DNA from: a virus | Direction: 5' to 3' (one strand) | DNA length: 35,539 nucleotides | IMG/VR virus record: IMGVR_UViG_3300020469_000124 | Coordinates: 1 to 35,539 of that record | Shown: piece by piece, positions 11,004 to 16,487 of the stretch | How positions within the stretch are numbered: the first letter of the stretch is position 1 | Layout: every line of letters begins with the position of its first letter | Notes under the pieces: model-generated | Database searches by the model: none | Told to the model about the DNA's origin: nothing | Seen by the model: the letters and a program-made list of their open reading frames with translations, nothing else | Translations under genes and position numbers: made by a program

Positions 11004-11495
11004 TTGAAAATTCAAAAATCAAATAACCCTAAACAAGCTCATCGTTACGGCATAAAACTCGATGGGCTTCCTAGGAGTATCAGACAATTTCTAATAGAAA
11101 ATAGAAGCCTAAATGAATGGGCAAATGATGTTCAATTCCTAGAACAAATAATTAGAATAGAGTCAAACAATCTCAAACTTAAAAATAGTACAAAAAGAAA
11201 TAAACTCTATTTTGACTGTACAACTGAAACACCATTACCAATGGACGACTTAGTAGAATCTTATGACACCGTAGAATGGACTTGCGCAATCAGTAAGAGA
11301 CCCATTCAATCTAAGTTTAATAATTTCAGTCTAGAAAATTTTATACACCCTGAGTACCTTGATGTGCTTAAATCACCGATGGTAGATAGCCGCATACTTA
11401 AAAGCAGTGTAGAATTTCGTAAATACTGTAAAAAACTCTTATTAGAAGAACAAAAAGAATTCATGAGAGTTATTAAAAAAGGAAAAAATCCATAA
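11004..11495 (+). CDS. Hypothetical protein (TTG start)
   Basis: A 163-residue protein that I do not recognise. The open frame starts at TTG 11004, eight bases after the previous stop; the first in-frame ATG is far downstream, so TTG is the best start. It has mixed charge with no signal or membrane segment. It ends in a Lys/Glu-rich helix (YCKKLLLEEQKEFMRVIKKG). Codon use matches neighbours, and the frame is open without long gaps, supporting a real gene. A recurring promoter block begins just after its stop. Confidence 0.6.
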   Translation: MKIQKSNNPKQAHRYGIKLDGLPRSIRQFLIENRSLNEWANDVQFLEQIIRIESNNLKLKNSTKRNKLYFDCTTETPLPMDDLVESYDTVEWTCAISKRPIQSKFNNFSLENFIHPEYLDVLKSPMVDSRILKSSVEFRKYCKKLLLEEQKEFMRVIKKGKNP

Positions 11496-11581
11496 TTGTT
11501 CATAACTTTTAAAAATAAGTTGCCCTAGATTTTCACGGGTCAAAGATTATAGTTATATTAGTATTATAATTAAAACTTAAA
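11496..11581 (+). promoter_or_regulatory. Recurring promoter block, copy A
   Basis: First of four near-identical blocks. The core TCACGGGTCAAAGATTATAG continues into TTATATTAGTATTATAATTA and ends AAACTTAAA directly before the ATG. TATAAT is a good -10 candidate about 20 bases before the start codon. Probably an early or middle promoter with a conserved leader. Confidence 0.65.
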
Positions 11582-11782
11582 ATGAACAATAAAAATACAA
11601 CAATCGATAAAGTAGCTTTAGAATTATTTAATAAACATTATGGTGAATTAAATAAAACTCAACAACAAACTTGTAATCATGAAATGGTAAACAATTCAAA
11701 GTGGTTAGCTCCATTTTGGAAGCAACCAGGTTATAAATCAGGAACTCAAAAAATTTGGGAAAGCAAATTAAAAAATTGTTAA
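11582..11782 (+). CDS. Small hypothetical protein
   Basis: A 66-residue protein preceded directly by promoter block A and followed directly by block B, so it is expressed as its own unit. It contains a Trp/Lys-rich C-terminal half (KWLAPFWKQPGYKSGTQKIW) and two Cys. No family recognised. Its position under a strong, repeated promoter suggests an early host-takeover peptide, but that is inference. Confidence 0.65.
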   Translation: MNNKNTTIDKVALELFNKHYGELNKTQQQTCNHEMVNNSKWLAPFWKQPGYKSGTQKIWESKLKNC

Positions 11783-11850
11783 TAACTTTTAAAAATAAGT
11801 AGCCCTGGATTTTCACGGGTCAAAGATTATAGTTATATTTATATTATAAT
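11776..11850 (+). promoter_or_regulatory. Recurring promoter block, copy B
   Basis: Shares over 60 bases with copy A (AATAACTTTTAAAAATAAGT, then TTTTCACGGGTCAAAGATTA and TAGTTATATTTATATTATAA). The leader differs: AATTAAAACAATAACAAAA before the ATG at 11870. It overlaps the end of the preceding gene. Confidence 0.65.
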
Positions 11851-11869
11851 AATTAAAACAATAACAAAA

Positions 11870-12157
11870 ATGACAAATTTACAAGAAACAGTTAAAGTAG
11901 GAGACAAAGTAAGAAGTTTCGACTTCGATAGTCATGAAGTAGAAGGAATAGATGCATGTTACGTTGAAGGTGTAGTAGAAAGTATAGAAGGTCACCCAAT
12001 GGGAGGTGGCGGAGAATACGTTAAATTTTTAATCACTAAAAAAATATTTAGTGGAAAAGAGATAACTGAAACTCTTGGAAAATTTAACTGGGTTCCTCAA
12101 AACGGACAAGAAAATTGGAATGGAAAATTAACTAATCACATAGAAAAAATAGGATAA
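11870..12157 (+). CDS. Hypothetical small beta-rich protein
   Basis: A 95-residue protein beginning TVKVGDKVRSFDF, followed by strands (YVEGVVESIEG, EYVKFLITKKIF) and a Gly-rich loop (MGGGGEY). This resembles a small SH3-like barrel. It is first in a run of four tightly spaced genes (11870-12882) behind promoter block B. No known function. Confidence 0.65.
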   Translation: MTNLQETVKVGDKVRSFDFDSHEVEGIDACYVEGVVESIEGHPMGGGGEYVKFLITKKIFSGKEITETLGKFNWVPQNGQENWNGKLTNHIEKIG

Positions 12158-12158
12158 A

Positions 12159-12458
12159 ATGACAACTTTAGAAAACGTAAAAGATTTTATTAGAACAGCA
12201 AATAGAGAAGAGCTTTCAGAAATTAGAACAATATTTAACACTGCTTTTAAAATAATCAAACAAGGAGAAAAAGGACAATTTAAAAAAGGAGATATGGTAA
12301 CTCTTGATTTTTATAACTATGATCCTACCGTTATTTATGAAGTTATTAGAGTAAATAAAAGAACGTTAACAATTACTAACGAAGCATTTGGAACCTTAAA
12401 GGCGGATCCACATGTTTTAAAAATGGCAACTGTAGGAACTTTTCCAGAATTAAAATAA
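12159..12458 (+). CDS. Conserved phage hypothetical protein
   Basis: A 99-residue protein starting one base after the previous stop. A helical N-terminus (VKDFIRTANREELSEIRTIF) is followed by a beta part (FKKGDMVTLDFYNYDPTVIY, EVIRVNKRTLTITNEAFG) typical of small phage proteins with a KOW/SH3-like fold. Function unknown. Cotranscribed with its neighbours. Confidence 0.65.
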   Translation: MTTLENVKDFIRTANREELSEIRTIFNTAFKIIKQGEKGQFKKGDMVTLDFYNYDPTVIYEVIRVNKRTLTITNEAFGTLKADPHVLKMATVGTFPELK

Positions 12459-12460
12459 TT

Positions 12461-12676
12461 ATGATTAGAAAGAAACAACCTAAAAAAGAAATTATTATAG
12501 ACCTTACAGGTCCGGATGGTAATGCATTTGTATTATTAGCTTATGCTAAAAGTCTTTCAAAAAAATTAAACATACAGTATGGTCCAATAGCAGATGCTAT
12601 GATGTCAGGTGATTATGAAAATCTACTAGAAGTATTTGACAAGCATTTTGGTGGATTGGTAATACTAGAAAGATAA
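12461..12676 (+). CDS. Conserved hypothetical protein (IIDLTGPDGNAF family)
   Basis: A 71-residue protein with the pattern KEIIIDLTGPDGNAFVLLAY, then a helix and MMSGDYENLLEVFDKHFGGL. I recognise this as a small protein widespread in phages and bacteria without an assigned role. Starts two bases after the previous stop. Confidence 0.7.
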   Translation: MIRKKQPKKEIIIDLTGPDGNAFVLLAYAKSLSKKLNIQYGPIADAMMSGDYENLLEVFDKHFGGLVILER

Positions 12677-12693
12677 TTTAAAAACAAATAAAA

Positions 12694-12882
12694 ATGATAA
12701 ACGAAAGATTAGTATCAGTAGAAGAGAGACAATCAATTTTAGATCGAATTCAAATAGCACTTGTTGTTGGTAATTACCCAACTTCAGCTAATGACCCTCT
12801 TATGAAAGATTTACAAAGGTTGATAACAGATGCAACCGAAAAAGTAATTAGTAAACAACTAAAAAAATTAAAGAAACTTTAA
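12694..12882 (+). CDS. Small hypothetical protein
   Basis: A 62-residue, mostly helical protein (EERQSILDRIQIALVVGNYP, KQLKKLKKL at the end). Last gene of the small-gene run before the replication block. No recognised family. Confidence 0.55.
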   Translation: MINERLVSVEERQSILDRIQIALVVGNYPTSANDPLMKDLQRLITDATEKVISKQLKKLKKL

Positions 12883-12937
12883 TTATTTTTACGTTAAACA
12901 AAATGAAATAAATCCATATAAATTAAAAGTAAAATAA

Positions 12938-13897
12938 ATGCAAGCAGTTCAACAGCTATTCACAGAAAAATATAGACCTAAAAACTTAGATGAATTAATA
13001 TTACCTGAAAGAGTAATGGCCAAATTTAAAGATGGCTTAGTTCAAAACGTTTTATTAGCTGGTTCTCCAGGTACTGGTAAAACCTCAACTGCAAAGGCAA
13101 TTGTCAATCAATTCAATATGCCGTATCTTTATATTAACGCATCAACCGATACATCAGTAGATGTTATTAGAACAAGAATTACAGATTTTTGTTCAACTGT
13201 TTCAATTATGGATGGACCAAGTTCTATGAAGGTTGTAATACTTGATGAGGTAGATGGTGTTAGTGATCAGTTTTTTAAAGCATTGCGCGCGACTATGGAA
13301 ACATTCGCATCAAATAGTAGATTTATAGCCACATGTAATTACATTAATAAATTACCAGATCCAATACTTTCAAGATTTGAAGTTATTAACTTTGATTTTG
13401 ACAAAGAGGAAGAGGCTGAATTGACAAAGAAATATATGAGAAGAGTTTATGAGATTTGTTCGAAAGAAGAAATGTCAATAGATAAACCTGCTCTACTTGA
13501 ATTTGTGAGAAGAAACTTTCCAGATTTAAGAAGTACATTAAATAAATTACAAGGGTTTAAGACACAAGGAACTACAGAAATTAAGGTAGATGATGTTAAA
13601 AGATTTAATTCAGTATATAAAGATGTGTTTGAATTAATTTTTAATGAAACAAATCCTATAAATAACTATAAAATACTAGTAAGCAATTATTCTAATAGAG
13701 TAGATGATGTGTTACAAAGTTTAGGTGAAGACTTCATCGAATACATTCAACAGGAAAAAGCACAAAGCGCTAAATATATTCCTGAAATTGTAGTAGAAGT
13801 AGCAAAGCACCAAGCTCAAAGAATACATGTCATCGATCCTGTTATTACAATGCTTTCTCTTGTTTATAAAATACAAGAAATAATTAGAAAAAATTAA
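12938..13897 (+). CDS. gp44: Sliding-clamp loader large subunit (T4 gp44)
   Basis: AAA+ ATPase that loads the DNA polymerase clamp; in T4 the clamp also activates late transcription. Its 319 residues equal T4 gp44 in length. Features: KYRPKNLDELILP at the N-terminus, Walker A GSPGTGKT (42-49), Walker B VVILDEVDG (99-107), sensor 1 ATCNYINKLPDPILSRF with Arg146 as arginine finger, a helical lid, and the C-terminal collar helices. First gene of the replication block; the nuclease gene begins three bases after it. The clamp gp45 itself is not in this window. Confidence 0.95.
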   Translation: MQAVQQLFTEKYRPKNLDELILPERVMAKFKDGLVQNVLLAGSPGTGKTSTAKAIVNQFNMPYLYINASTDTSVDVIRTRITDFCSTVSIMDGPSSMKVVILDEVDGVSDQFFKALRATMETFASNSRFIATCNYINKLPDPILSRFEVINFDFDKEEEAELTKKYMRRVYEICSKEEMSIDKPALLEFVRRNFPDLRSTLNKLQGFKTQGTTEIKVDDVKRFNSVYKDVFELIFNETNPINNYKILVSNYSNRVDDVLQSLGEDFIEYIQQEKAQSAKYIPEIVVEVAKHQAQRIHVIDPVITMLSLVYKIQEIIRKN

Positions 13898-13900
13898 ATT

Positions 13901-15136
13901 ATGATGAGAAAAGGCGGACATACATTATTAATAGACGGTAACTATTTTTTACATAGCCGTCTCTTTGTTTTGCCAAGACCAAAGAATGGCGTAATGTTAG
14001 AAGATGAAGCATCGCGTGCTTCTCTAATGAGAAAACTTGCAATTGACCTTGCATCTGAAGTTAGAAAGATGAGAGGTTTTATAGATAAAGTTGTTGTTGC
14101 AGTAGATGCAAGAAGCTGGCGTAAAGACCTCTTTCCAACAGCAGAATACAAAGGTACGCGAAAAACAGATAGCTCTATAGATTGGAATGCAGTATATGGC
14201 GTTTATGAAGAATTTCAAAATATTCTACAAAAACATGGAGTAGTCGTACATAAAATAGAAGGTGCAGAAGCAGATGATGTATTATTTGGATGGTCAACAT
14301 TATTAATTAATAAAGGTAGTAACTGTATTATATGGACAGGCGATAGAGACCTTATTCAGCTTGTTAATTATTCAAAAGCTAATGATTCATATGCGCTATG
14401 GTATTCACCAACTCAAAAAAGCCTATATGGTTTTAAAGATTTTATTGATGTTTTAAATACATCTGAATTAGAAGATAAAGAAGATGTACTATTTAATTTA
14501 TCTCAATACAGTGGTGTAAAAGAAGAATATAAAGAAGCTATAAAAATATGGATTCAAAATAATAAAATAAAATTAACAGAAGTTAATTGTGACGAATTCA
14601 TGTTTAAAAAAATATTAATAGGTGATAAGTCAGATAACATTCCATCTGTTGTGCTATGGCAAAAAGAAATGAAAGGCGGTAAACTTAGAACGTATTCAAT
14701 TACTGATAAAATAGCTGATAAAATATTTAAACAATATACTAAAGAAAATGAACAGTTTGTTATCGATCAATTATTTAACAAAAATGAAATAGAAAATTTA
14801 GCAGATATAGTATATAGAGTCATAGGTAAATCTTCAAAACAGACTATTCAAAATAATATTTCTAACAACATGGGCTTAATGATGTTACATACTAAAGTAA
14901 TACCAGATGCAATTCAAAATGAGATATACAAAAGTGTTGAAAAAGAATTAAAGGTTTTAGAAGGTACTGATCTTTCGCAACTTGTAAATAAAGAAAAAAT
15001 ATTAGAAGGTACAGATTGGTTGAAAATAAGTAAAGTACCAAAACAATATGATGCATTTTCTAATATTCCTACTGAAACAAAGAGACCAAAGAAGTTAAAA
15101 CTAGTAGGAAAAAAGACAAACAATAAATTATTTTAA
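13901..15136 (+). CDS. rnh: 5'-3' flap exonuclease / RNase H (T4 Rnh family)
   Basis: FEN-type nuclease that removes RNA primers from Okazaki fragments. The metal-site motifs are present: LLIDGNYFLH, VVVAVDARSWRKDLF with the basic helix AEYKGTRKTD, EGAEADDVLFGW, IIWTGDRDLIQLV, and the ILIGDKSDNIPSVV element (T4: ILKGDKKDNVASV). At 411 residues it is about 100 longer than T4 Rnh (305); the extra length lies in insertions after residue 180 and in a Lys-rich C-terminus (KRPKKLKLVGKKTNNK). The next gene starts one base after its stop. Confidence 0.9.
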   Translation: MMRKGGHTLLIDGNYFLHSRLFVLPRPKNGVMLEDEASRASLMRKLAIDLASEVRKMRGFIDKVVVAVDARSWRKDLFPTAEYKGTRKTDSSIDWNAVYGVYEEFQNILQKHGVVVHKIEGAEADDVLFGWSTLLINKGSNCIIWTGDRDLIQLVNYSKANDSYALWYSPTQKSLYGFKDFIDVLNTSELEDKEDVLFNLSQYSGVKEEYKEAIKIWIQNNKIKLTEVNCDEFMFKKILIGDKSDNIPSVVLWQKEMKGGKLRTYSITDKIADKIFKQYTKENEQFVIDQLFNKNEIENLADIVYRVIGKSSKQTIQNNISNNMGLMMLHTKVIPDAIQNEIYKSVEKELKVLEGTDLSQLVNKEKILEGTDWLKISKVPKQYDAFSNIPTETKRPKKLKLVGKKTNNKLF

Positions 15137-15137
15137 T

Positions 15138-15563
15138 ATGCTAGATGAAACTAAGCTTTTTGACTTTGTAAAAATAATGTTTACAAAGAGAGAAGAATAT
15201 GCAAAAATAAAAGAGTCCTCTAAAAAAAGACATCATTTTATGATTAATCGTTTTATGTCTATTCAGTATCCAGGAAACGCACAATTATTTAATTTTAATG
15301 GAATTAATGGAAGTAAAGTAATTGACTGCTGGCAAATGGTTACAGGTAGATTCAATAGAGTACCAGGATGGATATATACTAAAACGAAAAGTTCTAAGAA
15401 AAACGTCAAAGAAAAATATCAACCATCCGACGAAGCATTAAGGTTTTATATGGAAAGAAACGAAATAGGAAAAAGAGAAGTTGAAGAATTGAAGACATTT
15501 AATAAAGAACAATTTTATTCAGATTTAAAAAAATTAGAAAATCAAATAAAGGTTTATGGCTAA
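15138..15563 (+). CDS. gp62: Probable clamp-loader small subunit (gp62-like)
   Basis: A 141-residue protein. The segment KRHHFMINRFMSIQYPGNAQ and the following F-x-F, with WQMVTGRF...PGWIYTK and a C-terminal helix pair (EALRFYMERNEIGKREVEEL), follow the layout of short gp62 proteins in T4-like marine phages (FIINR...; QYDF...; F..W; YYG-S helix). The position two genes after gp44 in a tight cluster fits a loader partner. T4 gp62 is longer (187). The match is by pattern only; a gp59 or other replication accessory role cannot be excluded. Confidence 0.5.
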   Translation: MLDETKLFDFVKIMFTKREEYAKIKESSKKRHHFMINRFMSIQYPGNAQLFNFNGINGSKVIDCWQMVTGRFNRVPGWIYTKTKSSKKNVKEKYQPSDEALRFYMERNEIGKREVEELKTFNKEQFYSDLKKLENQIKVYG

Positions 15564-16197
15564 GATTTATTTGTTTCCTGAAGTATTAAGCATTACTCTT
15601 TATAAGTATAACCATATAGACAATAAACTATATACGTTAATACTTGATAATTGTGTAACAAAGCAACATCAAGATACTATATTAGTAAAAAAAGGAGATG
15701 TAAATTTATTGCTTCATCGGTATTTTAAAAAAACAATAAATAAAATTCAATTAATTCCACATAATGAATTACATAAAAGAGCAGACACTGTTTATTTTTT
15801 AAAAAAAATAATGGATGAAATGCCTAATTTAAGATGGTTTCAAATTTCATTCTCAAAAAATAGTAAATATTCTAGAATAAATGCAAACGAAGAAACAGGT
15901 GAAAAAACACTAAGCTTTGCTTTTAAAACAATTCGAGGAAGTTATAGGACTTTTGACTTTTTTAAAGAAAAAGATATGGAATTTGTTAATTATGTTTTAA
16001 AAGAAGTTGGTTGCATAAAAAATCTAAACTATTCTTTAATAAAATTAAAAACATTTATAGATAAACTTGAAAAACTAAGAGAATCTAACGATCAAAACGT
16101 AAAAAACGTTTGTGATAGAATGTTAATAGAATTTGATCAGTTTTATGAAGACAATCCTGAAGCACTTATAATTACTGACTATTTGGAAGATATATAG
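15556..16197 (+). CDS. Hypothetical protein in replication block
   Basis: A 213-residue protein overlapping the previous gene by 8 bases, so translation is coupled. It has an alpha/beta composition with no membrane segment and no motif that I can name. Its start MAKIYLFPEVLSITLYKYNH is beta-like and its end is helical and acidic. Association with gp44, Rnh and the gp62-like gene suggests a replication or regulatory role (T4 has gp59 and RegA in comparable places), but I see no residue-level match to either. A putative late promoter for the following gene lies inside its last codons. Confidence 0.65.
   Translation: MAKIYLFPEVLSITLYKYNHIDNKLYTLILDNCVTKQHQDTILVKKGDVNLLLHRYFKKTINKIQLIPHNELHKRADTVYFLKKIMDEMPNLRWFQISFSKNSKYSRINANEETGEKTLSFAFKTIRGSYRTFDFFKEKDMEFVNYVLKEVGCIKNLNYSLIKLKTFIDKLEKLRESNDQNVKNVCDRMLIEFDQFYEDNPEALIITDYLEDI
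16189..16196 (+). promoter_or_regulatory. Putative late promoter inside the end of the previous gene
   Basis: GATATATA, 19 bases before the ATG at 16216, the same spacing as at 5117, 18480 and 25760. It overlaps the stop of the replication block and would start the tail/packaging operon. Confidence 0.55.
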
Positions 16198-16217
16198 CAA
16201 AAAGAACCTTGCTATAT
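16192..16217 (+). promoter_or_regulatory. Hairpin covering the start codon of the holin-like gene
   Basis: ATATAGCAA (16192-16200) is perfectly complementary to TTGCTATAT (16209-16217), with an 8-base loop. The first two bases of the ATG are in the 3' arm. Only transcripts started upstream would contain the 5' arm. Confidence 0.7.
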
Positions 16218-16470
16218 GGAAAATAAAAAATCTTATCTAGAAAAGATATTAATGGACGTTGATGGTCAACCATCTTCTAAAAGACTTATTACATTAATTT
16301 CTTTTGTTTTAATCTCAGCCGCGTTTATTGTAAACATATTTATTGAAATTCCGCTAAAGGAATATATGTTCGAAGGTATGTTATGGCTAGCAGGTGCAGG
16401 TTTAGGTTTTACTACTGTTGAAAAATTTAGTAGAAGGAGCGGCGTTTCTGGCGATGAGAATCAAATATAA
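16216..16470 (+). CDS. Small two-span membrane protein, putative holin
   Basis: An 84-residue protein with a short N-terminal tail including DVDGQPSSKR, a first membrane span (ITLISFVLISAAFIVNIFI, about 25-43) and a second (YMFEGMLWLAGAGLGFTTVEK, about 50-70), then a charged C-terminus (KFSRRSGVSGDENQ). Size and topology fit small phage holin-like proteins, and the pattern PSSKR-TM-GLGFTTVEKFS is familiar from phages of Bacteroidota. It could equally be another phage membrane protein, as no lysis gene is adjacent; the lytic transglycosylase lies 17 kb away. Expression seems tied to late transcription by the promoter and hairpin at its start. Confidence 0.6.
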   Translation: MENKKSYLEKILMDVDGQPSSKRLITLISFVLISAAFIVNIFIEIPLKEYMFEGMLWLAGAGLGFTTVEKFSRRSGVSGDENQI

Positions 16471-16487
16471 AATTAGATAAATAATAT

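Follow-up and report, generated by a model that had tools for sequence, protein, structure and literature searches.

A probable late-transcript escape hairpin of the T4 gene e type at the start of a gene for a small membrane protein in uncultured marine phages

The locus and its gene context

The window, that is, the whole stretch of DNA that was analyzed, is a 35.5-kb viral contig (IMG/VR IMGVR_UViG_3300020469_000124; 35,539 nucleotides), in which a family search reveals T4-type genes; its portal, capsid, sheath and tube genes are presumed to be such from inspection of their translations by eye. A run of replication genes is closed by a gene for a 213-aa protein, which is followed by the gene for an 84-aa membrane protein and then by a neck gene. 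The relevant features are:

1200-1583, + strand: gp55-like late sigma factor (PHROG 234, E 1.7e-10)
12938, + strand: clamp loader, in the replication-gene run
13901, + strand: exonuclease, in the replication-gene run
15556-16197, + strand: upstream 213-aa gene, closing the replication-gene run
16189-16196, + strand: putative late promoter motif GATATATA (upstream enrichment; invariance in relatives)
16191-16200, + strand: 5' arm of the putative inhibitory hairpin (fold; conservation with compensating changes)
16195-16197, + strand: stop codon of the 213-aa gene, within the 5' arm (sequence reading)
16201-16203, + strand: predicted late transcription start (4-nt spacing class and T4 late promoter geometry)
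16209-16218, + strand: 3' arm, ATG included (fold)
16216-16470, + strand: small membrane protein of 84 aa, family not assigned
16476-16483, + strand: GATAAATA, exactly 4 nt ahead of the neck-gene ATG, a candidate leaderless-type late promoter
16488, + strand: neck gene (family search)

The host is probably a marine member of the Bacteroidetes, because the nearest neck proteins known from cultured phages come mostly from those of that phylum (Tenacibaculum, Chryseobacterium, Flavobacterium and Prevotella phages). A nucleotide search against cultured phages and an Rfam scan of the window each returned no match.

The 84-aa protein has one strong hydrophobic segment (27-43) and a second (approximately 52-68) that appears weaker by eye and falls below the cut-off. 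The gene had been described as holin-like, a label that draws on the small size and hydrophobicity of its product and finds no support in family assignment, there being no match in Pfam or PHROG, holin families included. Distant homologues are encoded by Caulobacter phage Cr30 and Microcystis phage Mel-JY01, with no comparable hairpin over the start of either homologue, and a scan of genome contigs for the 84-aa family yielded no confirmed match. In one relative (L006:6001-6507) the protein carries an 85-residue hydrophilic C-terminal extension; in another (L017:6001-6251) the frame is shifted, possibly by sequencing error, with hairpin and promoter intact.

The hairpin and its conservation

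Positions 16189-16218 read GATATATAGCAAAAAGAACCTTGCTATATG. The core of the stem consists of nine Watson-Crick pairs between ATATAGCAA (16192-16200) and TTGCTATAT (16209-16217) around an 8-nt loop, and a tenth pair, U-G, engages the G of the start codon (16216-16218). The original prediction had the stem lock the first two bases of the ATG; the stem is as predicted and the limit of two bases is not, since with the U-G pair all three can be paired. The predicted energy is -9.1 kcal/mol (z -7.0), a stability equaled by none of 200 shuffled sequences. Perfect 9-bp stems with loops of 3-12 nt occur nine times in the window versus approximately 2.8 times in shuffles, and the size of the stem alone is unremarkable in such AT-rich DNA; its significance lies in its position and conservation. 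A reading of the structure as a terminator was rejected: no T run follows the stem, and a scan gives no + strand site at the hairpin.

A search with the 84-aa protein identified 17 relatives in IMG/VR, which collapse to nine distinct junctions; an alignment-based search recovered the identical 17 loci, and the 213-aa protein, used as the query, led to seven contigs, all of them already among the 17. Every relative has GATATATA, invariant at this junction, 27-30 nt ahead of the ATG, and a hairpin at the equivalent place. Three pairs vary on both sides among the nine junctions: stem position 9 (G-C, A-U or G-U), position 10 (C-G or U-A) and position 12 (A-U or G-C), all lying outside the promoter and coding sequence except that position 9 is the final stop-codon base, where A and G are interchangeable. 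These changes are not all independent because the nine junctions are related; the relatives are few and akin to one another. Pairing is already kept in 93% of cells when the junctions are simply aligned with MAFFT, versus 26-59% when the partners are slid. When the promoter and ATG were held fixed and the leader only was shuffled (1000 trials per junction), equally stable structures arose six times or fewer at eight of the nine junctions; the outlier is L015 (121 of 1000), with a weak stem of -3.7 kcal/mol. A mismatch (A-A or A-C) in L006 and L007 is compensated by outward extension of the stem to span the whole ATG. The compensated variants that the original prediction called for are thus present, and a search for the contrary case, a stem lost while the ATG is kept, produced none, although the stems of L010 and L015 end immediately ahead of the ATG.

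The late promoter motif and the predicted start of late transcripts

The late promoter of T4 is TATAAATA. The phages of this group have a single -10 element resembling it, with GATATATA and GATAAATA enriched, together with the gp55-type sigma factor, as is expected of T4-type late promoters. Among 8-mers upstream of genes, GATATATA ranks first or second in each of the five long relatives, on the same strand as the gene; in a 205-kb relative, 34 of its 48 copies precede a gene by no more than 50 nt (1.2 expected), and in the window six of seven copies lie 19-33 nt ahead of a structural-type gene, with no copy on the opposite strand. This upstream enrichment supports the earlier identification of GATATATA as a late promoter overlapping the 5' arm (16189-16196 versus 16191-16200). 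The motif is not shared by Tenacibaculum phage PTm1 or Flavobacterium phage immuto, and no report of GATATATA late promoters was found in the papers searched. In PTm1 (L078, 160001-210000), the 7-mer with the strongest enrichment ahead of genes is ATACATA, possibly that phage's late promoter motif.

The distance from motif to ATG has two modes: one is sharp, at 4 nt, and the other spreads over approximately 14-34 nt. The 4-nt spacing is found ahead of 16 genes in G001 (the 205-kb contig to which L004 belongs; shifted control, 0) and also ahead of the neck gene, both in the window and in the relatives for which the neck start was read; L017, with its broken gene, is not among them. Genes with this spacing are candidates for leaderless late mRNAs, and if those messages begin at their own ATG, transcription starts approximately 5 nt past the motif. 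In T4 the late start lies 6 nt past the motif. With either offset the late RNA of the 84-aa gene is therefore predicted to begin at approximately 16201-16202, which agrees with the expectation that it would start beyond the 5' arm. For the window, the openness predicted for the ATG is 0.07 on the read-through RNA and 0.69 on the late one; it is nearly equal in both RNAs for L010 and L015 (0.42 and 0.35; 0.41 and 0.36), and the late RNA of L006 is likewise predicted to be fairly closed (0.12).

Putative transcription through the hairpin

A 36-nt element, TCAAAGATTATAGTTATATTAGTATTATAATTAAAA, occurs just upstream of genes at 11540, 11820, 30509 and 31590 of the window (three identical copies, and that at 11820 with five mismatches), with at least eight close copies in G001, and is probably an early or middle promoter. 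From 11540/11820 to 16216 every gene has the + orientation and the gaps are small, and a scan from 11400 to 16216 found no terminator-like site on that strand, an arrangement from which we infer early or middle read-through across the hairpin. An extra GATATATA within a gene at 15371, absent from that place in L014 and L015, may be mere coding sequence; if active, it would give rise to a late RNA still bearing the hairpin.

A second gene with a promoter and a start hairpin

The same phages have a gene of 125-128 aa, unrelated to the 84-aa gene, that encodes a coiled coil and a C-terminal hydrophobic segment (its resemblance to a phage hemolysin family is insignificant, E 0.08). In G001, G003 and G005 a hairpin covers the start region of this gene and a late promoter lies inside it or next to it, the arms being unrelated to those of the first hairpin; in G002 the long arms are imperfect. 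In the more distant relatives L086, L090, L094 and L096 (40-48% protein identity), GATATATA lies in the loop of a long stem ahead of the homologue of this gene, and the ATG is covered by the stem in L086 and L090 and uncovered in L094 and L096, whose stems might be terminators or insulators instead. The stem of these four, GGTCTTTTTAGTC...GACTAAAAAGACC, is very stable and terminator-like, placing a promoter inside a possible terminator. In G001 the reading frame upstream of the 125-128-aa gene ends approximately 80 nt short of the hairpin.

Proposed mechanism and alternatives

The best explanation of the junction, and in our judgment a probable one, is a hairpin of the T4 gene e type from which late transcripts escape. 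Early and middle transcripts through the replication genes would carry both arms, and on this long RNA a stem of approximately 10 bp would bury the start codon of the 84-aa gene, so that little protein would be made. Late in infection, RNA polymerase with the gp55-type factor would initiate at GATATATA within the 5' arm, producing an RNA that lacks that arm and leaves the ATG open. The stem, its compensated conservation, the promoter motif and the overlap of the two are features of the sequence; the position of the late start, early transcription across the junction and the loss of translation are deduced. The similarly placed promoter of the second gene, with its quite different arms, favors this account, and the near-equal openness of the two RNAs in L010 and L015, the fairly closed late RNA of L006 and the weak stem of L015 count against it. 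Bacteroidetes do not rely on the Shine-Dalgarno interaction for initiation, which in them responds to structure close to the start (PMC6847099), for which reason covering the ATG itself would be a sensible block in such a host.

The promoter also encodes protein: GATATATA doubles as the end of the 213-aa gene, supplying its last two codons (Asp-Ile) and the TA of its stop, and the codons GAT ATA are invariant in the relatives. Ribosomes finishing the 213-aa gene stop inside the 5' arm and could open the hairpin, so the read-through message may be leaky and its original portrayal as silent is overstated. Carried further, this suggests translational coupling as the function of the arrangement, the stopping ribosome opening the stem and freeing the ATG 18 nt downstream, in keeping with the short gap between the two genes and with a TAG or TAA stop inside the 5' arm of every relative. 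We regard this as unlikely: coupling would have no need of a promoter in the 5' arm, the placement of the stop is explained by GATATATA doubling as GAT ATA TA, and coupling is not common to both hairpin-bearing genes, because no coding sequence enters the hairpin of the second gene in G001 and G002. As a layer added to the escape mechanism, coupling to the 213-aa gene is possible.

An inverted repeat over a promoter is also the usual layout of an operator, and the repeat could be the binding site of a protein that governs the late promoter at the DNA level. This is very improbable given arms that vary with compensation, loops that range from 4 to 9 nt, and tolerance of G-U pairs and of a 1x1 mismatch accompanied by an extended stem, all of which suit a stem formed in RNA, not a DNA site of fixed sequence. 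That a chance hairpin lies beside a genuine late promoter is slightly less probable still: the abundance of comparable stems in the AT-rich window and the fact that the GATATATA half of the arm is already fixed by the promoter would make such an accident easier, and retention of the stem with compensating changes in the 17 relatives, together with the outcome of the leader shuffles at eight of nine junctions, speaks against it.

With the escape mechanism as the preferred reading of the 84-aa gene, a broader proposal may be put forward tentatively, at somewhat less than even likelihood: that a promoter within a start hairpin is a general module of this clade, attached to at least two unrelated genes of small membrane proteins (possibly for lysis), used in hosts independent of Shine-Dalgarno sites, associated with leaderless late mRNAs, and independent in origin of T4 gene e. 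The analysis defines a putative late promoter for an uncultured marine phage group, and occlusion of the start codon together with the placement of the promoter makes Shine-Dalgarno-free timing of small membrane proteins testable.

Comparison with known systems

The logic of T4 gene e, which the original prediction took as its model, is documented (PMC3014915, PMC2988022): a long early RNA folds over the start region of the gene, late promoters placed within the 5' strand of this fold yield RNAs that lack it, and the gene is held down early in infection (PMC3014915). The junction described here is similar in that promoter DNA lies within the 5' arm and the structure is predicted to cover the start on read-through RNA. 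It differs in that the product is a small membrane protein and not lysozyme, that there is no evident Shine-Dalgarno site and the start codon itself is covered, and that the promoter is GATATATA, which doubles as the last codons of the gene before it. The compensating changes constitute comparative evidence for a gene e-like timing device attached to a different gene in distant T4-type phages, the hosts of which are probably Shine-Dalgarno-independent.

Late or middle promoters that produce RNA without the inhibitory 5' strand are also known for T4 soc, gene 49, I-TevI, I-TevII, I-TevIII and segB, and for mobE of phage Aeh1 (PMC2988022, PMC3014915). Unlike the 84-aa gene, these belong to phages of Gammaproteobacteria and have nucleases or a capsid protein as their products, and sequence kinship is not expected; they are embedded in early or middle transcription units, as the 84-aa gene is predicted to be.
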